NCBI GenBank assembly: GCA_003663345.1
Contig: QMZU01000013.1
Location: 1-10,736 of the forward strand
DNA length: 10,736 nucleotides
Origin: Candidatus Aenigmatarchaeota archaeon
GTDB taxonomy: Archaea > Aenigmatarchaeota > Aenigmatarchaeia > PWEA01 > B50-G16
Direction: 5' to 3'
The first letter of the stretch is position 1, and each line of letters opens with the position of its first letter. Shown piece by piece: positions 1 through 10,736 of the stretch. Under the pieces are notes generated by a model, which searched no databases, was not told where the DNA came from, and worked only from the letters and a program-made list of their open reading frames with translations. A program made the translations under genes and the position numbers.

Positions 1-3000
1 CAACGATACAGGTGACAAACGGAAATATGTCTGAAGTTAGAAGGCTCGGAGAAAACTACATTATTCTCGGCATCAAGGTGACCGATACCGACAAAGGTCG
101 AGGTGAGCCGGGTGTTTCAACAGCAATATGGATAAGCAAGAGTGGAACGGACCTCGGACAGCGCTTCAACTGCACAACCACATCAGGAGGCTATTGCTAC
201 CTCCAGTACTATCCAAACTGCAATTCAACAGTTGGTACCCAGACCTGGATTGCAGGGATAACCGATACCTGCTATCAAATACAAAACACTACAACGGCTT
301 ATCTGGATGTATATGGCCAGCTTTATCCAAATATAACATCACCAGATAATGATTCAATAGTTACGAGAAATCAGTTCATAGAACTCAACGCTACTGTTAT
401 AGATGACTGTAATGCTGATATCACCGACGCGAATGTGCTCTGGTTCAATGAAACATGGTACCAGATAGCATCCGGATACAACACCAACTGGACGGTTCCA
501 AGCAGATACGAAACCGGCTCAGAGATAATACATGTGAATTCCACCAGAACTTTCTATGATGAGGGGACATCAAATGTAACAATAAATGTATTCGGGTTGA
601 GCGAAATTGAACATATAACACCATCCAATGGCACGGAGTACCTTGCCGGTCTGGACGTAACAGTTACATGTAAGGTGAGAGATGCTGACATTCTCACTCC
701 AATACAGAATTATCCTGTTAACTTCTACAGAAATGGTTATCTGAACGAGAGCGGGTACACGGATGAGGATGGTATTGCCACATGGATATGGACGGATACC
801 GACATACCTGGTTATTACAATATCACCTGCAACATAACAGATGAGTTTTCACTTGGTTATAACTACACGGAACCACATGAACGATATACGATAATAAGAA
901 TAAACAGACCTCTTATCATAGATCAGATATATCCAGAAACAACTCCGATATACAGAAATGACCTCTTCACACCAAATACCACAAACATCACAGTGCATGT
1001 AAAAGATGCAGAAGTAGGTGATGCGTTCAATGCAACAGTCAGTTTTTATAACTCAACAACTTTCCTTGGAGAGTGTCACACAAACTCTACCGGCTATTGC
1101 TCAATAATTTACAATCCACATGACACCATAACACCAGGTATACATACGATATATGCAAACGCAACCATCGATAACCCCCTGATTTCCAATTCCACAACAG
1201 AAACAACAACCGTAACGGTCAAAGGCATCCTCAACATAACGATAGATTCCCCATCGAATGGTTCAGAATTCCAGAGAAGCGATGTGGTGAGTTTGCAATC
1301 GACACTGAATGATGAGAACGGAGAGAGCGTTTCGGCAACTGTGAAATGGTACAACTCAACTGGCGCGGAGATAGGTTCCGGGACCGATACATTCTGGACA
1401 CCTCTGGAGCAGTCTCCAGGATGGGATGAAATAATGGTTCAGGCAACCCGTCAGTACTATGACACAGGAACCGACAACACAACAATTCTCATAACCGCCA
1501 CAGCAGATGTTCTCTGGATTTCTCCATCAAATGGAACCGTGATTCACTATCCTACCACCATGGAGCCAATCTGTCTGGTCAGGGACAAGGACTCACTTCA
1601 GGGTGTTTCAAACTATCCCGTAAACTTCAGTTATAATTTCACAACCACACCTGAACCGATATTCAATGTAACAGTCCTGACAAATAACACAGGACATGCA
1701 ACTTATAACTTCACAACACCGGAGAAAGGATACATGACAATACTCTGTAACATATCAGATAATGATACACTCTACTACACAGTCAGGTACCATATTGACA
1801 GCGCGACTTTCCTTATACGTGACTTCGATGCACCCCAGATATTGGGAACCAATATAACACCAACATCCCAGATAGAGGCGAATCTCGATTACATAAATAT
1901 CACGGCGAATATAACCGATAACTACCGTGTGTATTCAGTCTGGGCAGAGATAGGATTCCCGAACGGTTCCTATTATAACGTAACCATGCAGAACACCACA
2001 CCAGAATGGACGAGATTCAGAGGAACCTTCATCCCACCAATCGGCGGGACATACAATGTCACCGTATTCGCACAGGACTATCCTCCGGAATCAAACCTTA
2101 ACTCCAGTTTTGCTGGATATTTCTACGTCTGGGGCAAGAGCTTCGGTGAAGTGGAGCAGGTAGACCTCGTTACCCTTTATGGAATAACCCAGACAGACTC
2201 GGATAGTTTTGATATGACCGTTAACTTCACCAATAATGGACCAGCGCACATGTACGATGTGAATATTACAATGGAAGAACACAGCCCCTACAATGTCCAG
2301 TTCAACCAGACATTCCCGTACAGCTGTGGAGATCTGGCAGCGGGTGAAACATGTGTGATGCCTGTAACGGTTACTGTTCCTGCCAAAACACCACCCACAG
2401 CCATAGACCTCTACGGAAACGCAACATGGAGAAATCCGGATGTGTCCACAAACATGACGTTCGGTGTCACGACCATAGATGTAGCATCAAATCCGGTTAT
2501 AGATATTCATGAAAGTCTTGTCACAGGTGTGACACCTCACGGGGAAACCACGCATGTCGGGAGTATAACTGTCAAGTCCACAGGAAATGACGGGCTCGAA
2601 AACATAGACTTGGGAACGGTCGGTGGGAATATGGAGGACAACTGTCCGGGATGCACTGTCTCTCTCATACCCTCAACATGGGGTTATCTCGCCGCTGGTG
2701 ATAACTTCACGGTTGATATCAGTGTGAGTGTGCCTCTCGGACAATCACCTGGATACTATTACACATATATATCATCAGTTTCCTCGAATGATGGCTCAGA
2801 TATAGTTAAGTTGAATGTTTCAATTCCAGTGAACATGACATGGAATAGAGCCCCAGAGACCTTCAACTTGGTTTACACGCCGAAAGGAACTACTGGCAAA
2901 GTCGGGGATATAATAATCACAAATTACGGTAATGTTAAAATACCATTTTTCGTGAGCAGAACAGGAAACGGTTCGGACCTCATACTCCTTGACCCGGGAT

Positions 3001-6000
3001 CGCTCACGGTTGACAAACAGGCGAGCAGAAATGAAACAGTCAGTTATGCAATTCCACAGAATAAAGAAGATGGTATATACTATGTACAGGTGGTTATGAG
3101 GAATGTTTCCGCGGACCCACCAGAACTCATAACGGACTTCTATCTTGATGTGAGACCTGTGGAGATGACATGGAATCAAACACCCTCTGAAATAAATGCC
3201 ACAAATATGCAGCTTCGCTCTGGCAATTTCACACCGGTAAATATAACCAACACAGGTAACATTCCGATGTTGATACATCTCAATGTCACAGGAAATATAT
3301 CCACCCGGACAGGGTTCAATTATACCAATATAACAGTCCCGCCAGGTCAGACCAGTACAATTGTGCTGAACTACACCACACCCAACGTCACGGGTATCAC
3401 GGTTTACACCGGTTATCTCTTCTCGTATAACTCAACCTCAAATGTAACGCACAATTCAACACTCAACATCACGATATATCCATTCTTCGTTGACATCGTC
3501 CAGCCGAGTTTCGATAACCCATTAAATGATGTGATGCCGAACTCCACAGTAGAGGTGGTGGTGAATGTTTCCGATGCATTTGGTCCGGTCAGTGACCCTG
3601 TGGAATTCACAGCTTATGTGCTCAATGAAACCTGTCAGGCATGGGCAAATGTCACATCTGCCACATACTCCTCTGGCCTCTGGTATCTGGATGTAACGGC
3701 TCCGGATCTTCCAACAGGTCACGCATATGACTTCCTCATCTATGCGAACAGAACAAATATTCCTTATCAGGATGGGAGTGACAGAACAAACGGTTCCGTA
3801 ATATACGGTGATATCTATCCACCGGAGATGGTGATAGACATGTATTCCACAAACGATCAATCATATCCAATACTGGATTCACAGGGTTCGACCATATACT
3901 TCTTCGTAAACGTGACAGAGAATGGGACGATGCAGAGTATGAACGCGTACATCACCTTCCCCAATGGAACAACAACTCCATTCCCGTTCACACTCCTTTC
4001 AAAGGAAGATGCTCTCCACTGGTATTCACTTGAGTTCCAGCACACCGAAAACCTCGGAAACTACAGTGTAAGAATCGAGGCATGTGATCTGGCAGGCAAC
4101 TGCGCAGAGGAAAGAAAGTGGTTCAAGATAGTTGAAAAGGTTTATTATGCAGGAAGATACGTGGATTATGAGAGTACTGAACAACCAAAACTTGATGGTT
4201 ATATAAAATTCTACGAGCAAGGGGGCAACTTCCTTTACTATGATGTGAGTATAGACTCTTCAGGAAATTATAATGAATCAGTCCACAAAGACTATTTTGA
4301 TATAAAATACAAGGTCGGACAAGATTATCTTGATTTCTACAACGTAAACATAAACCAGACCTTCTACAATCCGACAATATTCGGTATAATACCGGCATCC
4401 AAGATAGGTGCGGGTGGACTGAAAGGACTATACATAGACAGCGTTCTTCAGTTCGATGTCGCATCACTCACATTTGACTACTCGGATTTCGTGACCGAGA
4501 TAACAGCATCGGACCTACAGATTTATAAGTGTACTGACTGGATTCAGGGCGTTGGTTGTGCTGTCAACTGGACAAACATGTCAGGTTCATACCACCTTGT
4601 TCCGTATACAAACTTCATCCGTGTCAATCTAACAAACTTCAACACACACGCCTATGCCATAGCCGAGCACATCTGCGGTGACGGTATCTGTAATGGAGAC
4701 GAGAACCATGGAAAATGTCCGCATGATTGTCCAGCCCCTCCAGTTACCCCACCAACTCCTCAAAACATAACCGGTGCTGCTCCAGGGGCAGGTGGCGGTG
4801 GAGGAGCTGGTATAAATATAACAAACATCAGCATTCCAAGTGTTGAACAGATAGCTCCCGCTGGCATTGGTATTTCACCAACCAGTATGGAGGCCACGCT
4901 CGAGCCAGGCGAATATGAAATAAGAGCAATAGCGATAACCAACAACAAAGGTTACGATATAGTCGTATCGCTGGAGGTCACAGGTGATGTCTGGGACATG
5001 GTTGAGCTGGAGAGGCTCGGTTCAACAGTCCCGAGCAAGGGCAGTGAGCTGTATAAGGTCAAACTATACGCACTACCAACCACACCACCGGGAATTTACA
5101 CCGGTTCAATAAAACTAACCATAGACGGTGAACCCTACAGTATACCCGTGACCATAAGGGTTGTTCTTCCACCACAACCACTGCTGGACGTCAAAGTCGC
5201 CGCGCTCAACAAGAAGGTTGAACCAGGCCAATACCTTAGGTTCAGGGTGGACCTCTCAAATCTAGGACAGACAAAGAAGGTAGATGTTTTCATAAATTAC
5301 GTGATAAAGGATGTGGTCACAGAAGATATCATTGAGAAGAAGGAGAAGACACTCGCACTTGAAACATCACTCTCCTTCACAGAGACCATGAAAATCCCAG
5401 AGGACACACCACCTGGCAAATATGTAATAGAGGCAACAGCGCACTATGCCAACAGGATAGCAACAGGCGTTGACAGCTTCGATGTTGTGGTACCCTTCTG
5501 GCTATTCTCTCTGCTCTGGGACCTGTTCACGAACATATGGATATACCTGATACTCTTCGGCCTCCTCCCGGCATTATATATTGCAATAAAGTTCTACAGG
5601 AGATGGAGAGCACTCAAAGCAGCCCGTGCCAGATACATATTCCCGGTTGACATAAAGAAGCTCCCACAGCCAGGACCGGATGCCATAGAGGTTGGAAAGA
5701 TAGCCGAGACCGATATGAAAGCGTACTTCAACATAAATGACCTGACAACCCACGGAATCTCAGCAGGTGCTACCGGTTCAGGTAAATCCGTCTCAGCACA
5801 GGTGATATCAGAGGAGCTGCTCAAGAGAGGAATTCCGGTGATAGTCTTTGACCCAACAGCCCAGTGGTCTGCATTCATAAGACCCTGCCAGGATGAGCGC
5901 ATGTTGAGTCTCTATCCGGAGTTCGGTCTCAGAAGGGGTGATGCAAGATCATTCAAGACAAACGTTATCCAGGTGGATGACAAGGATATGGAAATAGATA

Positions 6001-6710
6001 TCCGCGATTACATGAAAGAGGGAGAGATAACGGTCTTCCTCCTGAACAAACTCAGTACAAAAGATCTTGACCACTTCGTGAGGAAGACCATAGAAGGCAT
6101 ATTCAAGATACCGTGGCCCGAGGCAAAGAGACTCAAAGTCTTCATAGTCTACGACGAGGTTCACAGACTGTTGCCGAAGTACGGTGGTTCAGGTGGATAC
6201 GTTGCTCTTGAAAGGGGTGCACGAGAGTTCAGAAAGTGGGGTATCGGTCTCTGGATGATATCACAAGTCCTGAGCGATTACAAGGGAGCGATAAGAGCCA
6301 ATATCGCAACAGAGATACAGTTGAGAACCAAGTATACAGGTGACCTGAGACGTATAAAGAGCAAGCACGGTGCGGAATTCGCAGCTAGAGTGCCACGTCT
6401 ACAGGTTGGTACGGGTCTTGTACACAATGCAGAGTACAATGACGGTAAGCCATGGTTCGTCAGGTTCAGACCACTCTTACACGACGTGGGAAGAATGTCC
6501 GAGGAGGAGATAAATGAATACCTGACCCACAAGAAGAATCTGGATGACCTGAAGAGAAGGACAGAAGCCCTCAAGGAGAGAGGTGTGGAGGTCTATGACG
6601 TTGAAACTGAACTGGAGATGGCATATGACAGGTTAAAGATGGGTCAGTTCAGAATGGTTTCCAGCTATGTTGAATCTCTCACAAAGAGAATAGAAGAATT
6701 AGGAGGATAG
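1..6710 (+). CDS. Giant envelope-spanning protein: Ig-like ectodomain fused to a HerA/FtsK-type ATPase (5' partial)
   Basis: The frame is open to the left edge (codons ACG ATA CAG precede the first GTG at 12), and the first visible residues already lie inside a beta-domain, so the true start and any signal peptide are outside the window. Numbering from the GTG, residues 1-1554 are a chain of Ig-like/CARDB-like domains, with about 85 N-x-S/T sequons counted by eye over the ectodomain. A four-cysteine CGDGIC...CPHDC element follows at 1555-1573, then a Pro-rich and Gly-rich hinge to about 1605. Two sequon-free beta-domains occupy about 1620-1826. A Trp-rich membrane segment lies near 1842-1859, followed by a basic stop-transfer (YRRWRALK). 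The cytoplasmic ATPase spans about 1888-2165: Walker A GATGSGKS 1919-1926, Walker B VFIVYDE with D2048-E2049, a sensor-like SQ at 2084-2085 and a candidate arginine finger near R2105. A helical tail ends at 2232. Members of this ATPase family form hexameric DNA or protein pumps; the substrate here is unknown. It leads a four-gene cluster. Confidence 0.93.
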   Translation, partial: TIQVTNGNMSEVRRLGENYIILGIKVTDTDKGRGEPGVSTAIWISKSGTDLGQRFNCTTTSGGYCYLQYYPNCNSTVGTQTWIAGITDTCYQIQNTTTAYLDVYGQLYPNITSPDNDSIVTRNQFIELNATVIDDCNADITDANVLWFNETWYQIASGYNTNWTVPSRYETGSEIIHVNSTRTFYDEGTSNVTINVFGLSEIEHITPSNGTEYLAGLDVTVTCKVRDADILTPIQNYPVNFYRNGYLNESGYTDEDGIATWIWTDTDIPGYYNITCNITDEFSLGYNYTEPHERYTIIRINRPLIIDQIYPETTPIYRNDLFTPNTTNITVHVKDAEVGDAFNATVSFYNSTTFLGECHTNSTGYCSIIYNPHDTITPGIHTIYANATIDNPLISNSTTETTTVTVKGILNITIDSPSNGSEFQRSDVVSLQSTLNDENGESVSATVKWYNSTGAEIGSGTDTFWTPLEQSPGWDEIMVQATRQYYDTGTDNTTILITATADVLWISPSNGTVIHYPTTMEPICLVRDKDSLQGVSNYPVNFSYNFTTTPEPIFNVTVLTNNTGHATYNFTTPEKGYMTILCNISDNDTLYYTVRYHIDSATFLIRDFDAPQILGTNITPTSQIEANLDYINITANITDNYRVYSVWAEIGFPNGSYYNVTMQNTTPEWTRFRGTFIPPIGGTYNVTVFAQDYPPESNLNSSFAGYFYVWGKSFGEVEQVDLVTLYGITQTDSDSFDMTVNFTNNGPAHMYDVNITMEEHSPYNVQFNQTFPYSCGDLAAGETCVMPVTVTVPAKTPPTAIDLYGNATWRNPDVSTNMTFGVTTIDVASNPVIDIHESLVTGVTPHGETTHVGSITVKSTGNDGLENIDLGTVGGNMEDNCPGCTVSLIPSTWGYLAAGDNFTVDISVSVPLGQSPGYYYTYISSVSSNDGSDIVKLNVSIPVNMTWNRAPETFNLVYTPKGTTGKVGDIIITNYGNVKIPFFVSRTGNGSDLILLDPGSLTVDKQASRNETVSYAIPQNKEDGIYYVQVVMRNVSADPPELITDFYLDVRPVEMTWNQTPSEINATNMQLRSGNFTPVNITNTGNIPMLIHLNVTGNISTRTGFNYTNITVPPGQTSTIVLNYTTPNVTGITVYTGYLFSYNSTSNVTHNSTLNITIYPFFVDIVQPSFDNPLNDVMPNSTVEVVVNVSDAFGPVSDPVEFTAYVLNETCQAWANVTSATYSSGLWYLDVTAPDLPTGHAYDFLIYANRTNIPYQDGSDRTNGSVIYGDIYPPEMVIDMYSTNDQSYPILDSQGSTIYFFVNVTENGTMQSMNAYITFPNGTTTPFPFTLLSKEDALHWYSLEFQHTENLGNYSVRIEACDLAGNCAEERKWFKIVEKVYYAGRYVDYESTEQPKLDGYIKFYEQGGNFLYYDVSIDSSGNYNESVHKDYFDIKYKVGQDYLDFYNVNINQTFYNPTIFGIIPASKIGAGGLKGLYIDSVLQFDVASLTFDYSDFVTEITASDLQIYKCTDWIQGVGCAVNWTNMSGSYHLVPYTNFIRVNLTNFNTHAYAIAEHICGDGICNGDENHGKCPHDCPAPPVTPPTPQNITGAAPGAGGGGGAGINITNISIPSVEQIAPAGIGISPTSMEATLEPGEYEIRAIAITNNKGYDIVVSLEVTGDVWDMVELERLGSTVPSKGSELYKVKLYALPTTPPGIYTGSIKLTIDGEPYSIPVTIRVVLPPQPLLDVKVAALNKKVEPGQYLRFRVDLSNLGQTKKVDVFINYVIKDVVTEDIIEKKEKTLALETSLSFTETMKIPEDTPPGKYVIEATAHYANRIATGVDSFDVVVPFWLFSLLWDLFTNIWIYLILFGLLPALYIAIKFYRRWRALKAARARYIFPVDIKKLPQPGPDAIEVGKIAETDMKAYFNINDLTTHGISAGATGSGKSVSAQVISEELLKRGIPVIVFDPTAQWSAFIRPCQDERMLSLYPEFGLRRGDARSFKTNVIQVDDKDMEIDIRDYMKEGEITVFLLNKLSTKDLDHFVRKTIEGIFKIPWPEAKRLKVFIVYDEVHRLLPKYGGSGGYVALERGAREFRKWGIGLWMISQVLSDYKGAIRANIATEIQLRTKYTGDLRRIKSKHGAEFAARVPRLQVGTGLVHNAEYNDGKPWFVRFRPLLHDVGRMSEEEINEYLTHKKNLDDLKRRTEALKERGVEVYDVETELEMAYDRLKMGQFRMVSSYVESLTKRIEELGG
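12..1838 (+). repeat. Two tandem copies of a three-domain unit (about 303 residues, 910 bp) in the giant protein
   Basis: Within the ectodomain a set of three different beta-domains occurs twice in the same order. The first domain has a G-Y-C turn (SGGYCYLQYYP in copy 1, STGYCSIIYNP in copy 2). The second opens with an S-P-x-N-x-S motif at residues 110 and 413. The third opens with H-I-T-P-S-N-G-T at 201 and W-I-S-P-S-N-G-T at 502, and both copies then carry a C-x-V-R-D...NYPVNF stretch. Offsets between matching points are 301 to 308 residues. The copies are diverged, so this is an old internal duplication. Because copy 1 begins at the window edge, more copies may lie upstream. Confidence 0.75.
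2835..3490 (+). repeat. Pair of tandem 110-residue MTWN beta-domains in the giant protein
   Basis: Two adjacent domains each begin with M-T-W-N followed by a proline (residues 942 and 1052). Both then show an I-I/V-I-T-N-x-G-N strand-turn motif about 30-40 residues later, typical of CARDB/NPCBM-associated folds in surface proteins. The period is 110 residues. They form the middle of the external arm and are unlike the upstream three-domain unit, so the arm grew by at least two independent duplications. Confidence 0.6.
6701..6706 (+). promoter_or_regulatory. Shine-Dalgarno site of the zinc-finger gene
   Basis: AGGAGG sits inside the last codons of the giant gene, 9 bases before the ATG at 6716. 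It is a full match to the archaeal anti-SD core. With only 5 bases between stop and start, it argues for co-transcription and translational coupling of the two genes, and it fixes the start of the small gene. Confidence 0.85.
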
Positions 6711-6715
6711 ATACG

Positions 6716-7066
6716 ATGGCAGAGGAAATGTACAGATGTCTTTTGTGTGGTGAAAAGTTTGGGACAAAGAGGGGTCTCATCATACACAAATCCAAAAAAC
6801 ACAGCACCGAATCCCAGAGAAGACTGAACAGGTTAAAAAACAAACCCAAGAAGAACAGAAAGGAGATTGAAGAGATACTGAACGACCTCAGAGCCCAGAA
6901 GGAGGACATCAAAAAACTCTTGTACCACATAGAGGATGGTTACAGACGTGCCCAGATATCCGAAGAAACCTATGAAGAAATCAAAAGAAGAAATGAACAG
7001 AGATTGCTTGAGATATACAGTGAAATAGACGAACTCGAGAAGGTCATCAATTCGGGAGATTTATAA
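6716..7066 (+). CDS. Small C2H2 zinc-finger protein with SHOCT-like helical hairpin
   Basis: This 116-residue protein has no signal peptide or membrane segment and should be cytoplasmic. Residues 6-29 form a classical C2H2 finger: C8-x2-C11-x12-H24-x4-H29, with F15 and L21 in the usual core positions. A basic stretch (about 35-49, rich in R, K and N) follows and could contact nucleic acid. The remainder is predicted helical: a first helix at about 48-75, then the hairpin motif Y76-R-R-A-Q-I-S-E-E-T-Y86, then a second charged helix to about 111. The hairpin resembles the SHOCT family of short C-terminal oligomerisation domains and recurs in the two downstream proteins. The start is set by AGGAGG at the end of the giant gene. 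A finger of this kind may bind DNA, RNA or protein; a regulator of the cluster or an adaptor for the motor are both possible, and the sequence does not decide between them. Confidence 0.9.
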   Translation: MAEEMYRCLLCGEKFGTKRGLIIHKSKKHSTESQRRLNRLKNKPKKNRKEIEEILNDLRAQKEDIKKLLYHIEDGYRRAQISEETYEEIKRRNEQRLLEIYSEIDELEKVINSGDL

Positions 7067-7089: not shown

Positions 7090-8775
7090 ATGGTTGATAT
7101 AAGGGCGTGGATAAAGGAGCAACTCAAAGCAGGATACACGCCCGAGGAGCTGAAAAAAGCCCTGAAGGACTCTGGATGGGACCCACGACTCGTCAAGGAG
7201 ACCCTCAGGGAAGAGTTCAAGACAGGTGACAAGATGGCCAAAAAAGAGAAAAAAGAAGAGAAAGAGATGACAGTTGAAGAACGCCTCAAACAGATGTGGA
7301 AGAAGGACCTCGAGGAACAGGGTGTGAAAGAGGAGGAAAAAGAGGAGAAGAAGCCTGAGCCCAAACCCCCACCAAAAGAGGAGCCCCCACCTGAAACCGC
7401 CCGTGAGGTGAAGATTGAAGCGGATATTCAGAAAAAAATTGATTCTCTTCAAATAGAGGTCGAGAAGCTCAAAACATTTCAAGAAAGCATTCAGAACCTC
7501 CGCTCTGAATTCAATGAAAGGTTACAGCGCCTCAGTGAGGATGTTGGGGAGGTCCGTTCTCTGGTTTACCAGCGCGAGACGGAGTTCAAAGAGGTGGAGA
7601 TGGAGGTTGAGAAGATAAGTGAGATAGTTGAGAACCTCGACCCGAACAGGCTTCTGTCGGAGTTCAGAAAGATAGAGAGGGATATGGAACTGAATGAGGC
7701 AGAGATAGAGAGGATGGGACAGGCGCTGTCCGATACGATTTCTAGAATGAGAAAGGTTGAGGATATAATAACCAGCATCGGGAGAGTTGAGAACCTTGTG
7801 GAGGCCGGAAGGATAATGAACAAGAAACTTGCAGAAATAGACGAAAAAGCAAAAAAAATAGGAGACCTGCATGCAAAGATAGAGCGCCAGTTCATAGAAC
7901 TCGGTAACAGAGTCGATGAGATAGACAAGATGAAGAGAAATATGGAGGCCATGGATGATGCGATAAAGAGTCTGTTCGACATAACCGACGAGATAAACAA
8001 GAAACTGTTTGGATATGTGGAGAAATCCGAACTTACTTCTCTTAAGGATGAAATGAGGAGGATTGCTGATGATATGGAAAGATTCAAGGCCGAAATCCAG
8101 ATTCAGCTTCAGAACCTCAAAAAAAGTATAAGTACTATAAGTACTCCTTCAACACCGTCACCACAACCCTCAACCCCTCCAAATCCTGAACTTGAAAAAC
8201 TTCAGGAGCAGAGGGAGCAGATAAACCTTCTCCTATCAACCCTTGAAGAGGAGTACAAGAAGAATAAGATAAGCGAAGAAGATTATAAGAGAGCAAGAGA
8301 AATCAACCTCGAGGAGCTGAAGAACATAGAGAAAAAGATACAGGAATTGAAAGAGTCCAAACCAGAGAAACCTCCTCAAGAACCAAAACCAGTCCCACCG
8401 GAATCTGTTCAGATGCCATCACCGGAAAAACCACCACCTGCGGAAGAAAAAACACCGGAGCATGTTAAAGAAACAACACAAGAATCACCGGAGAAACCTG
8501 TTCCAAGGGAGCAGAAAGGAAGAATAATAGTTGAAGGTATCACAAAACCAGAGAAGAAACCCGAACCAGAGAAAAAAGAGGAGCCTGTTGAGAAACCTTC
8601 TGAGCCAGAGAAAAAAGGGGTTGCACCAAAACCTGAAGAGAAGAAACCCGAAAAACCACCAGAACCGGAAAAATCCGAGGAAGAGTTGATGCTTGAGGAA
8701 CTCGAACATCTTTACAAAGAGGGTCTGATAAGCAAAGAGGCATATGAACACACAAAAAAGAAGATAACCGGTTGA
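7090..8775 (+). CDS. Cytoplasmic coiled-coil protein with two SHOCT-like hairpins
   Basis: This 561-residue, highly charged protein lacks a signal peptide and membrane segments. Residues 1-45 form a small helical module (WIKEQLKAGYTPEELKKAL, then SGWDPRLVKETL) of a kind I recognise from many archaeal proteins, probably a three-helix protein-binding unit. Residues 45-115 are Lys/Glu/Pro-rich. About 115-345 is a long coiled coil with regular heptads, including a VGEVRSLVYQRE patch. A Ser/Thr/Pro linker (about 349-366) follows, then hairpin 1 with Y389...I394-S-E-E-D-Y399, a Pro/Glu/Lys tether (about 420-535), and hairpin 2 with Y542...I547-S-K-E-A-Y552, ending at 561. The design suggests a multivalent scaffold. 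No enzymatic motif is visible and I cannot name a family. The ATG at 7090 is preferred because the helical module begins at once and the TATA-like box points to it. An ATG at 7076 is out of frame. Confidence 0.88.
   Translation: MVDIRAWIKEQLKAGYTPEELKKALKDSGWDPRLVKETLREEFKTGDKMAKKEKKEEKEMTVEERLKQMWKKDLEEQGVKEEEKEEKKPEPKPPPKEEPPPETAREVKIEADIQKKIDSLQIEVEKLKTFQESIQNLRSEFNERLQRLSEDVGEVRSLVYQRETEFKEVEMEVEKISEIVENLDPNRLLSEFRKIERDMELNEAEIERMGQALSDTISRMRKVEDIITSIGRVENLVEAGRIMNKKLAEIDEKAKKIGDLHAKIERQFIELGNRVDEIDKMKRNMEAMDDAIKSLFDITDEINKKLFGYVEKSELTSLKDEMRRIADDMERFKAEIQIQLQNLKKSISTISTPSTPSPQPSTPPNPELEKLQEQREQINLLLSTLEEEYKKNKISEEDYKRAREINLEELKNIEKKIQELKESKPEKPPQEPKPVPPESVQMPSPEKPPPAEEKTPEHVKETTQESPEKPVPREQKGRIIVEGITKPEKKPEPEKKEEPVEKPSEPEKKGVAPKPEEKKPEKPPEPEKSEEELMLEELEHLYKEGLISKEAYEHTKKKITG
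8347..8694 (+). repeat. Low-complexity Pro/Glu/Lys tether in the coiled-coil gene
   Basis: Roughly residues 420-535 of the coiled-coil protein are built from irregular short repeats such as PEKP, PEPEKK and KPEKPPEPEK, encoded by purine-rich DNA with recurring CCAGAGAAA and CCGGAAAAA words. It has the composition of a stiff, disordered linker separating the two hairpins. Repeats of this type change length readily between strains. Confidence 0.7.
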
Positions 8776-8786
8776 TGGTGCCGTAA

Positions 8787-10118
8787 ATGAGATGGATTCT
8801 GTTTGCGATTCTTTTTATTCTGATAAGTGAGAACGTTCTTGCCTCGTGCAACTACGATGTTATTATAAAGAATAAGAATGTTGAGCAGGAAGATTACCTC
8901 CAGGTTTCAGTCCTTCTCCAGAACAAGCTGGACAGAAGGCAGCAAGCTCAGGTGGAGTATCAAGTTATTGGAACAAGGGTCTGGTTTGATGAGAGTGAGG
9001 CAACAGTTCTCTATCCCACAGAATCGAAGAACCTCACAAAGGAGATATACATATACACTGCTCAGGACCCAGGCGAATATATCCTGAACACAACCATCAC
9101 ATGTGGATTCGATATTTATGTGGTTGAGAAAAATTTCACAGTTTTTGAGAGGGGGGCACTTAAACAGAACGAAGGAAAAAAGGAAACAAAACCACTCATG
9201 ATCACGAGCATACCGGATACTGTAAGAACCATATCAGGCGAACCTGTTAGTTTTCTCGTGAGTTTCAAAAACTTTGGCGATCATGACCTTTCGGATGTTT
9301 CCATAAAACTCGATAATATAGATAAGAGCTGGTACAACATCAAAAACCCTGTGATACCCACACTTCCCCAACAGGAGTCGAACTCATTTAATATAACGAT
9401 AACTCCACCCTCTTCCACAGATGAACAGCTGAAATCCATAAGGGTCACAATCTTTTCCGATACCTTCAGTGACTCGGAATCCGTAACCTTGAGAATATTT
9501 GCGACAAAGGAGGGATACATAGACTTTGAACTGGCCAGACTTGAAGACAAGCTCTATGAACTGAAAACAGCCTCCGCTGCCCTTAATGAGGAGGACATAA
9601 AAGAAAGCTTGAACGAAGCAGAGGCGGAGATAAAAAATGCAAAAATAGACTACAATCAGACAGATTATGATACTGCCATTGAAAGGTTAAAGAAGGTGGA
9701 TGAAATTCTGAAAAATGTGGATGAATACATCAAAGAAAAGGAATCAGAAATTGGAGGGTCGATTTTTCTTCCACTGGTTGATATATGGAACATAATAATA
9801 TCATACTGGATATTTCTTCTTATCCCTGTAGCTGGTGCTGGCGCATTTCTCCTTTTCAAACGTTTTTCACCCAAAAAAACCGAAGAAAAAACAGAACCTC
9901 AGCCGGTGCAATCACCAGCACCACCGCGAAACGAAGCAACAGAGATAAAGAAGATAATTCAACCTCCACAGATGGATAAGGAAAAGGAAAGAAGAAAGAT
10001 AGAGGGTGTGTTAAATATACTCAACAACCAGTATAAAAATAATCTGATATCTGAGAAAGCTTACAAAGAGATGAAGGAGCTCTATGAGAGGAAGCTGAGG
10101 GAACTATCCAAAGAATGA
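8787..10118 (+). CDS. Membrane protein: signal peptide, two Ig-like domains, one TM helix, cytoplasmic SHOCT-like tail
   Basis: This 443-residue protein starts with a hydrophobic signal sequence (residues 1-20). LASC at 18-21 resembles a lipobox, but C21 and C106 are the only cysteines and sit near the two ends of the first beta-domain, so a disulphide is the likelier use. Domain 1 spans about 22-120. Domain 2 spans about 136-240 and is CARDB-like (VSFLVSFKNFGDHDLSDVSI). A helical stretch follows at about 245-320, then a membrane helix at about 333-357 and a KRF stop-transfer. The cytoplasmic tail has a Pro-rich tether and a terminal hairpin, Y416...I421-S-E-K-A-Y426. Five sequons lie on the external side. 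The ATG at 8787 is 11 bases after the previous stop, with only a weak GGTG before it. Its topology mirrors the giant protein (external beta-domains, single TM, cytoplasmic module), so it is a plausible partner in the same complex. No known enzymatic motif is present. Confidence 0.88.
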   Translation: MRWILFAILFILISENVLASCNYDVIIKNKNVEQEDYLQVSVLLQNKLDRRQQAQVEYQVIGTRVWFDESEATVLYPTESKNLTKEIYIYTAQDPGEYILNTTITCGFDIYVVEKNFTVFERGALKQNEGKKETKPLMITSIPDTVRTISGEPVSFLVSFKNFGDHDLSDVSIKLDNIDKSWYNIKNPVIPTLPQQESNSFNITITPPSSTDEQLKSIRVTIFSDTFSDSESVTLRIFATKEGYIDFELARLEDKLYELKTASAALNEEDIKESLNEAEAEIKNAKIDYNQTDYDTAIERLKKVDEILKNVDEYIKEKESEIGGSIFLPLVDIWNIIISYWIFLLIPVAGAGAFLLFKRFSPKKTEEKTEPQPVQSPAPPRNEATEIKKIIQPPQMDKEKERRKIEGVLNILNNQYKNNLISEKAYKEMKELYERKLRELSKE

Positions 10119-10469
10119 TGCAGCTCTTTTCTCCACCTCTTCTGTGAAACTGAACATGGATACAACCTCGTTAAGGTGACGTACAAAAGTTATGGTCGTG
10201 AGCAATGTGGCCAGAACCGCAAGAAAAGCTACCCCCATAATGATAAGGTCCAGATCCGCGACACCGGCCCTTATAATTATACATACTGGGAACGCAATCT
10301 GAAGGAATGCCATGAAGAAAACAGGCCTGCACAGACTTCCGAAAACTTTACTTATTTTACCTGTGAGGAGTTTTGATGCTTTTTTTGCGTTCACGAAAAG
10401 GAAGATGTTTGTGGCTGTTACAATCACTATATAAATTACCGCCATCACTATCTTCATTATTTCAATCAT
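10104..10469 (-). CDS. Small three-helix membrane protein of unknown function
   Basis: This 121-residue protein has hydrophobic segments at about 6-27, 47-68 and 73-95. The loop after the first helix is lysine-rich (NAKKASKLLTGKISK), so by the positive-inside rule it is cytoplasmic. That puts the N-terminus outside and the charged tail (from about 97: RHLNEVVSMFSFTEEVEKR) inside. No catalytic motif is seen and I do not recognise the family. GAGGTG lies 5 bases upstream of the ATG at 10469, supporting this start over the Met at residue 5. The start overlaps the stop of the preceding ATPase gene as ATGA, so the two are translationally coupled; a membrane anchor or sensor for that ATPase is a reasonable inference. 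The last codons overlap the convergent 443-residue gene by 15 bases. The hydrophobic pattern and the good SD make this a real gene rather than a shadow. Confidence 0.85.
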   Translation of the reverse strand: MIEIMKIVMAVIYIVIVTATNIFLFVNAKKASKLLTGKISKVFGSLCRPVFFMAFLQIAFPVCIIIRAGVADLDLIIMGVAFLAVLATLLTTITFVRHLNEVVSMFSFTEEVEKRAASFFG

Positions 10470-10736
10470 TCTTTCACCTCTATCTTCTCGGCAGAGAGTT
10501 CTTCTACAATTCTCGCCATTTTCTCACTTTCCTTTGAATTGCACATCAGTATTCCACGAATCTCCCATTCTTCAACCCTTTTTTTCATGAATTTTGAAAA
10601 TTTAAGAGCAACATTGGGCGTATTGTATCTTGAAATACTGTTCAGATTATCTATGAATATGAAATCCACAGTTGTTGAAGCAACAAAATGATTAATGAAA
10701 AGAGCCACATCCGTTAAATTGGATGGTGAGCTGGAA
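10466..10736 (-). CDS. RecA/KaiC/RAD55-like ATPase, C-terminal part (5' end outside window)
   Basis: The frame enters from the right edge and is open upstream of the GTG at 10708 (reading S-S-S-P-S-N-L-T-D-V-A-L-F), so the visible 90 residues are the C-terminal portion of a longer protein. The S-P-S-N-L-T-D segment leads into a helix, then a hydrophobic strand ending in Asp (VDFIFIDNLNSI), which fits the Walker B strand of RecA-fold ATPases. Next come ALKFSKFMKKRVEEWEIRGILM, matching the following helix and strand, and a charged C-terminal helix. The P-loop would lie outside the window, so ATPase activity cannot be confirmed here. The order 'P-x-N-L-T... hhhhD-x-h... LKF' is typical of archaeal KaiC/RAD55-like regulatory ATPases. 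It forms an operon with the small membrane protein, which starts within its stop codon (ATGA). A role in signalling is an inference from family habit. Confidence 0.75.
   Translation of the reverse strand, partial: SSSPSNLTDVALFINHFVASTTVDFIFIDNLNSISRYNTPNVALKFSKFMKKRVEEWEIRGILMCNSKESEKMARIVEELSAEKIEVKE
10475..10480 (-). promoter_or_regulatory. Shine-Dalgarno site of the three-helix membrane protein gene
   Basis: GAGGTG on the minus strand (CACCTC on the plus strand) lies 5 bases before the ATG whose first base is at 10469. It sits inside the 3' end of the preceding ATPase gene and works together with the ATGA overlap at 10466-10469 to couple translation. Confidence 0.75.

Follow-up and report, generated by a model that had tools for sequence, protein, structure and literature searches.

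As far as the available accounts describe them, cultivated DPANN archaea are ectosymbionts that need direct contact with their hosts. The closest described giants are the SPEARE proteins, for which the accessible parts of the original paper (Hamm 2019, PMC6642349) give lengths of up to 8553 residues, a C-terminal transmembrane (TM) helix in most, and a chain that is largely extracytoplasmic, with adhesion domains and a conserved intracellular part labelled type III restriction-like. A laminin-G domain is stated there for all SPEARE extracytoplasmic parts, and SPEARE-like sequences are reported in Woesearchaeota, Aenigmarchaeota, Micrarchaeota, and Altiarchaeales. TM and cytoplasmic peptides of the Nha. 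antarcticus SPEARE were found only in gel fractions below 315 kDa, and the protein was most abundant above (PMC6642349); as the fractions separate their peptides, arm and motor may be cleaved apart after synthesis. A later study took the cytoplasmic end for a VirB4/TraG-like ATPase, the arms being Ig-like, and proposed secretion straws (Reva 2023, PMC10266531). According to the available text of that paper, an immediately downstream VirB4/TraG gene with PF03135 accompanies SVXNc_0300 and BNXNv_0298, in two genomes, and the coiled coil it describes is the C-terminal tip of the giant protein itself.

A second point of comparison is the Ced system of the Sulfolobales. The accessible text on it (PMC11868833) describes CedD as required for DNA import in Saccharolobus and as having an N-terminal domain between TM and ATPase; Ced works with the multi-pass protein CedA and with Ups pili.

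The giant protein and the spread of its architecture

The window, as we call the whole 10,736-nucleotide stretch analyzed, is the complete contig G000:C13 of a Candidatus Aenigmatarchaeota archaeon whose genome (G000) is 74% complete and lies in 183 contigs. A giant gene (3–6710; this and all features below are on the + strand unless stated) runs through 2235 stop-free codons from an extracellular arm over a single membrane helix into an ATPase, as a sequence-only reading of this DNA had proposed. The contig begins at base 1, so the frame is open on its left side and has no start codon in the window. Because the end of the contig truncates the gene, the arm (residues 1–1840; 3–5522) is at least 1840 residues long, with its full length and true N-terminus beyond the contig, and thus exceeds the 1800 residues first given. 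Within the arm, the NEW3 domain at residues 737–807 is the sole Pfam match above its cut-off, while the Ig-like Big_1, Big_7, and MG2 matches all fall below theirs; the Ig-like domains of the sequence-only reading are putative. The claim that the arm is glycosylated fared similarly. N-x-S/T sequons are enriched, with 86 in the arm versus 26.3 ± 4.5 (maximum 41) in 1000 shuffles, and the 373 cytoplasmic residues hold none. The same holds across the family: in the 31 of 43 proteins with at least 400 residues ahead of the Walker motif, sequons number 4.99 per 100 residues in the arm versus 0.11 in the cytoplasmic part. Glycosylation itself is predicted from these sequons, and no STT3/AglB oligosaccharyltransferase (PF02516) was found in the 74%-complete genome, yet its arms are sequon-rich; the same search was positive in four control archaea.

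Towards the membrane, the arm carries a Cys-rich CGDGxC...CPxDC motif (residues 1558–1576; 4674–4730), with a like motif recognized by eye in a paralogue from the same genome, and then a Gly-rich linker (4773–4811). The single TM helix, predicted from hydropathy only, spans residues 1844–1864 (5532–5594). A giant extracytoplasmic part, one TM near the C-terminus, and a cytoplasmic ATPase are the features shared with the SPEARE proteins, which are known here by description; the topology of our protein follows from hydropathy, its Ig-like matches are weak, and its ATPase motifs are intact. From the descriptions by Hamm 2019 and Reva 2023, the arm-ATPase architecture is therefore of a known kind. 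It differs from them in that all SPEARE proteins have laminin-G, whereas no Pfam match to it was obtained at E ≤ 0.01 in the 2235 residues of the frame, a weak negative because the contig stops short of the N-terminus.

Judged from sequence comparisons, such fusions occur widely among DPANN archaea. The paralogue in G000 has a frame of 2915 aa and is 50% identical in the ATPase part, and besides the two giants, DUF87 detects two smaller frames, one of 426 and one of 483 aa. Among relatives, 23 of 59 genomes contain an ATPase match at E < 1e-90, a count that leaves out weaker matches to other HerA-like proteins. How often arm and ATPase occur in one protein, a question raised by the earlier reading, can be gauged from a search with the 436-residue TM-ATPase region, which matched long proteins in 505 clusters (E ≤ 1e-3); the lengths of these proteins, about 1230–3900 residues, are the limits of the search itself, and the 120 of the 505 clusters that are listed cover 97–100% of the region. 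Named sources among the matches listed include Aenigmatarchaeota, Micrarchaeota, Woesearchaeota, and Nanohaloarchaeota, together with one entry labelled Thermococcus (on a 5.9-kb contig) and one labelled Euryarchaeota SM23-78. Of the 141 genomes in the class reached via a Pacearchaeota locus, 15 carry the family ATPase at E ≤ 1e-40, and a single genome may have up to three strong ATPase places (G128 and G106). The fusion is thus less exceptional than had first been supposed: the SPEARE layout was already published, and it recurs in at least 120 protein clusters.

A gene cut by a contig end, in a genome of 183 contigs, could in principle be a chimera in which assembly joined a surface protein to an unrelated ATPase. 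We consider this next to impossible. As the arm-helix-ATPase join recurs in the paralogue of the same genome and in many independent genes, it is not an artefact, and homologues carrying the same join refute the chimera; the misassembly that the earlier reading had named as its own undoing is likewise countered by the paralogue, the 23 of 59 relatives, and the 505 TM-ATPase clusters.

Two frames of the arm-ATPase family are far larger. An unbroken frame of 12,373 residues on a Micrarchaeota contig (L159 and L160; G069:C12:99310-136429) exceeds the 9409-aa protein described in the available text of Reva 2023 as the largest from cultivated archaea; its start appears AbrB-like by eye and is followed by a hydrophobic helix at position 72. 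Another frame has 11,262 residues (L161 and L162; G020:C2:31307-65093) and contains no exactly repeated 12-mers. Tandem pairs of family ATPase genes occur at L149 (G092:C8) and L145 (G075:C72), the second gene of L145 being cut by the contig end; as the tandem ATPases of L149 are followed by one partner gene, arms may be duplicated with a common partner.

The link to published SPEARE sequences was also approached through P0037, a protein named 'Nanohaloarchaeota archaeon QJJ-7' that is 52% identical over the entire TM-ATPase region and acidic in both parts. No published SPEARE name appeared among the 120 matches listed for it. Frames of the published SPEARE lengths (5998, 8553, 4057, 9409, and 8880 aa) were found in none of the 34 genomes that make up both the class and the phylum of G062 here. 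ATPase charge was measured in 18 of 20 loci and none was acidic, so this length search is uninformative on halophiles.

A HerA-clade ATPase

The ATPase core (5685–6428), delimited by Pfam, a member alignment, and PDB and NCBIfam matches, contains Walker A (GATGSGKS, residues 1922–1929; 5766–5789), a DPTAQW motif (within 5847–5867), Walker B (VFIVYDE, residues 2046–2052; 6138–6158), an Arg motif (6207–6248), and an SQ motif (6255–6272). It is followed by a C-terminal cytoplasmic tail (6429–6707) that is conserved in the member alignment and, by eye only, apparently helical. In an alignment of 11 family members, the residues of Walker A, DPTAQW, Walker B, REFRKWG, and SQV vary little or not at all, which points to an active ATPase. 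DUF87, the HerA central domain, matched residues 1895–1958 with 41.9 bits against a cut-off of 23.2 and was present in all 11 members scanned; HerA_C was also above its cut-off, and FtsK_SpoIIIE was weak and under its own (15.9 versus 24 bits). By its DUF87 core and its Walker A/B, Arg, and SQ motifs, the giant protein is placed in the HerA clade of the FtsK-HerA superfamily.

PDB sequences and family models agree with this placement. A profile of the 11 members matched eight distinct PDB sequences at E ≤ 0.01, five of them named HerA or HerA-like and the other three DNA helicase, ATP-binding protein, and DUF87 protein, with HerA 4d2i at the top (1.6e-12). At E ≤ 10 it gave 19 PDB rows, in which chains of FtsK and 'DNA translocase coupling protein' appear from E = 0.062 and no chain is named VirB4 or TraC. 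These HerA matches and the DUF87 score bear out the earlier view of a HerA-clade ATPase fused to a very long external arm. Across the same members, the NCBIfam models for CedD and thermoproteal HerA matched 11 of 11, TraC nine, and CedB two; CedB, which that view had used for comparison, is therefore a fair parallel by way of its paralogue CedD and of HerA. The best matches of the giant protein were CedD (43.3 bits; equivalog cut-off 600) and HerA (43.0 bits; cut-off 800), with TraC at 28.2 bits (cut-off 567). Because all scores are far under the equivalog cut-offs, the ATPase is neither HerA nor CedD proper, and by sequence it is nearest to these two.

The regions around both Walker motifs and the Arg and SQ motifs all align with HerA (PDB 4d2i). 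The alignment begins at HerA residue 119, leaving HerA 1–118 unmatched, and between the two aligned blocks 46 positions in the giant protein replace 118 in 4d2i; the ATPase thus lacks the HerA N-terminal region, which we take to be the HAS barrel, and most of the RecA-core insert, presumably a four-helix bundle. Unlike HerA, it is membrane-anchored, with only about 30 residues between the TM and the start of the aligned part. CedD and CedB share with it a TM and a C-terminal HerA-clade ATPase, whereas Ced has the CedD N-terminal domain, CedA, and Ups pili, and the available text on it describes no giant arm.

The type IV secretion ATPases VirB4/TraC and TrwB/TraD belong to the same superfamily and match weakly, but the giant protein scores lower against them than against HerA and CedD and is without the VirB4 N-terminal domain. 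These scores bear on the effector-secretion straw that Reva et al. 2023 proposed for SVXNc_0300 and BNXNv_0298 with their downstream VirB4 (PMC10266531), in which the arm binds the host and a VirB4/TraG-like ATPase exports proteins into it. The TraC matches in nine of 11 members are in line with such a straw, as is a nanohaloarchaeal consortium for which the available text (PMC11001535) describes cytoplasmic bridges measuring up to 11 nm together with changes in host DNA methylation, read as protein transfer to the host. For the locus studied here, we nevertheless regard secretion as rather unlikely: HerA and CedD outscore TraC (43 versus 28 bits), VirB4- and TraC-named chains are missing from the 19 PDB rows, PF03135 is absent at E ≤ 0.01 from the six proteins of the window, no effector is known at the window locus, and the genes downstream encode a hairpin protein, a coiled coil, and a second surface protein where the two genomes of Reva 2023 have VirB4. 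Membership in VirB4/T4SS was rejected on scores and absent parts (the VirB4 N-terminal domain and PF03135), and no T4SS gene was recognized in the window.

Two other identities were tried and rejected. PF04851 (ResIII) is a minor match in one of 11 scanned members and is precomputed in several family members listed; such matches may explain the older restriction label of the SPEARE cytoplasmic part, and a type III restriction domain was not retained. PADLOC models for HerA and mad8 match the ATPase weakly and nothing in the two other proteins scanned, and arm, TM, and neighbors do not resemble a defence system.

A coiled-coil partner downstream of the ATPase gene

The sequence-only reading took the giant gene alone. 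The gene is real, and three co-directional genes trail it, with gaps of 5, 23, and 11 bases, including a partner and a second surface protein. The partner (7090–8775) is a conserved coiled-coil protein of 561 aa without a membrane helix, whose central domain (7447–8058) served as the family model. It contains a SHOCT-like hairpin at residues 380–413 (8227–8328) and a second hairpin (8683–8763); as the Pfam SHOCT match (PF09851) is below its cut-off, 'SHOCT-like' denotes resemblance only.

A partner homologue lies at most four genes downstream in 39 of 43 family ATPase genes. These come from 42 loci in the own genome, its relatives, and named genomes, and some are contig-end fragments; L084 (G013) was excluded because its contig ends inside the ATPase. 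At two of the four exceptions, L034 and L041, the contig runs out; the other two are the pair of ATPase genes of L082 (G037). Using phmmer with the central domain from the window, without iteration, the identical 39 of 315 ORFs were found, and a profile rebuilt from 11 random rows also recovered 39. Reversed sequences gave one match in 315 ORFs at 2.5e-9, versus the 39 forward matches at E < 1e-30.

The linkage was also followed genome-wide, by counting how many strong partner matches (E ≤ about 1e-30) have a same-strand ATPase no more than 4 kb upstream. This was the case for 29 of 29 in the own genome and relatives (six weaker rows dropped), for 27 of 37 in the class of G062 (ATPase rows weaker than 5e-24 left out), and for 15 of 19 in the class of G067 (seven rows between 1e-17 and 1e-15 dropped), or 71 of 85 in the three groups together. 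The remaining 14 of 85 are away from any detected ATPase; four of the ten in the G062 class lie less than 1 kb from a contig start. By genome, the partner was present in 21 of 23 relatives with the ATPase versus 0 of 36 without (p = 5e-14), in 23 of 24 versus 3 of 10 in the G062 class (p = 2e-4), and in 13 of 15 versus 2 of 126 in the G067 class (p = 1e-14). It should be noted that the profile seeds include many relatives, that related genomes are non-independent events, and that the tests in the G062 and G067 classes are nearly, not wholly, independent because the seeds include G062, G064, and G067. As a single-sequence database search with the partner matched nothing except itself, the evidence for its spread comes from searching genomes with profiles.

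ATPase and partner distances are correlated (Mantel r = 0.82 for 37 of 39 pairs; 0 of 2000 permutations), and as this is confounded by common descent we did not use it as proof of interaction. In a cut into three clusters, the window's partner and the window's ATPase fell into different groups. Six ATPase-less partner loci were inspected, and some adjoin other surface or membrane proteins. At L143 (G093:C75:1755-2876), a partner homologue has its own C-terminal membrane helix, no giant ATPase was detected, and the adjoining genes look pilin-like by eye. Genome G037 (L082 and L150; G037:C53) has two family ATPases, one of them almost armless at 385 aa, and no partner match genome-wide at E ≤ 1e-5, possibly a decayed or partner-free state.

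The partner weakly matches SMC/Rad50 coiled-coil models, which, with the weak FtsK_SpoIIIE match, would suit an FtsK-like chromosome or division anchor that carries an incidental surface domain and has an SMC-like partner. The SMC matches are far under their cut-offs and probably reflect only coiled-coil similarity, the FtsK match is itself below threshold, and a family that is patchy among relatives (23 of 59) and has three strong places in G128 and G106 is unlike a core division gene. We consider a division role very unlikely.

A second surface protein and shared hairpins

Between the ATPase and partner genes, a 116-aa protein (6716–7066) combines a weak C2H2 zinc-finger match with a SHOCT-like hairpin (6911–7015). 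Behind the partner, the third gene (8787–10118) encodes a second single-pass surface protein of 443 aa, with a weak NEW3 match below cut-off, a TM at about residue 336, and a cytoplasmic hairpin of the partner type (10002–10106). It aligns with the C-terminal part of a family of about 1950 aa (22% over 472 positions, E = 1e-16), single-pass surface proteins with NEW3/MG2/Ig domains found at related loci. Of the 21 loci in the ATPase cluster to which the window belongs, 14 have a relative of this ~1950-aa protein nearby; 13 of these relatives are encoded on the same strand, and the one at L055 is on the opposite strand. L056 and L058, of the other ATPase cluster, also have one, on the opposite strand. 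A different single-pass protein, about 850–1050 aa long, occurs at five further loci (L045, L079, L080, L081, and L083).

The tail of the 443-aa protein ends in a hairpin, which in the family reads LLExEYKEGxISExxYxELKxxNExKL; 25 of 39 partners and the 116-aa protein of the window have it too. A model of this hairpin, built from 14 of these segments, matches 43 of 315 ORFs at E ≤ 0.05, and all of the matches belong to the 172 ORFs that follow an ATPase at a distance of at most five genes. The minus strand of the window further encodes a 121-aa multi-pass membrane protein and, by eye, the C-terminal piece of a RadA/KaiC-type ATPase (10104–10735); these genes are convergent with the operon and probably unrelated to it.

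The recurrent neighbors found are not channel proteins; one is the coiled-coil partner and the other the second surface protein with its single membrane pass. With these neighbors and a compact ATPase that lacks the HerA insert, the locus could serve a mechanical or assembly role, in which the ring of ATPases would cluster or assemble the arms and a coiled-coil scaffold, or put them under tension, and would move no cargo. The FtsK-HerA superfamily as known consists of pumping motors, and a 2004 paper by Iyer is reportedly on 'pumping ATPases'; this, with the strong conservation of the motor motifs, leads us to judge a cargo-free role unlikely.

A candidate contact machine

The reading we favor, to which we give about an even chance, is that the locus encodes a SPEARE-type, contact-dependent transfer motor of a DPANN archaeon. 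The topology signature, the intact motor motifs, and the conserved linkage to the partner are its basis. The arm would lie outside and bind the host cell, the ATPase domains would form a hexameric ring beneath the membrane, the coiled-coil partner would scaffold or gate this ring, and contact would trigger ATP-driven transfer of macromolecules across the joined envelopes. The DNA uptake or secretion suggested by the sequence-only reading is likewise a proposal. The closest relatives are HerA and CedD, the latter being needed for DNA import; by analogy, imported host DNA would be our guess for the likeliest cargo. The host-methylation result favors protein export over DNA import. In the available account, images of Nha. 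antarcticus suggest a cytoplasmic channel at contact sites.

Several observations count against a transfer motor. With one helix per subunit, it is not obvious how a wide channel would form, nor does any of the three downstream genes resemble a multi-pass channel protein of the CedA or VirB6 kind. No nuclease, relaxase, or competence family is among the Pfam matches of the window's proteins. All putative relationships to DNA motors are based on scores no higher than about 50 bits, far below equivalog cut-offs. SPEARE arm and motor are possibly separated, G037 is without the partner, 14 of 85 partners are away from an ATPase, and partner and ATPase of the window differ in cluster.

A more specific version of the transfer motor is possible, and we put it forward tentatively: a DPANN-specific contact machine, distinct from T4SS, in which a HerA-clade motor with a host-binding arm would work with a coiled-coil ring or scaffold and, in many loci, with a second arm tied in by SHOCT-like hairpins, from Aenigmatarchaeota to Micrarchaeota and Pacearchaeota, drawing in host nucleic acid or other macromolecules. 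The fusion itself was already known; for the HerA/CedD placement, the coiled-coil partner, and the hairpin-tailed second surface protein, no description was found in a body of literature that excludes most subscription papers and all bioRxiv preprints.

To our knowledge, no molecular machine for DPANN-host contact has been proved so far. The SPEARE giants are a candidate for such a machine, and published readings of them include restriction enzymes as well as secretion straws. The HerA/CedD placement and the partner would reduce the problem to a small, expressible complex of two proteins, of about 370 and 560 residues, which would make the question of a contact machine testable without arms of 2000 to 12000 residues.
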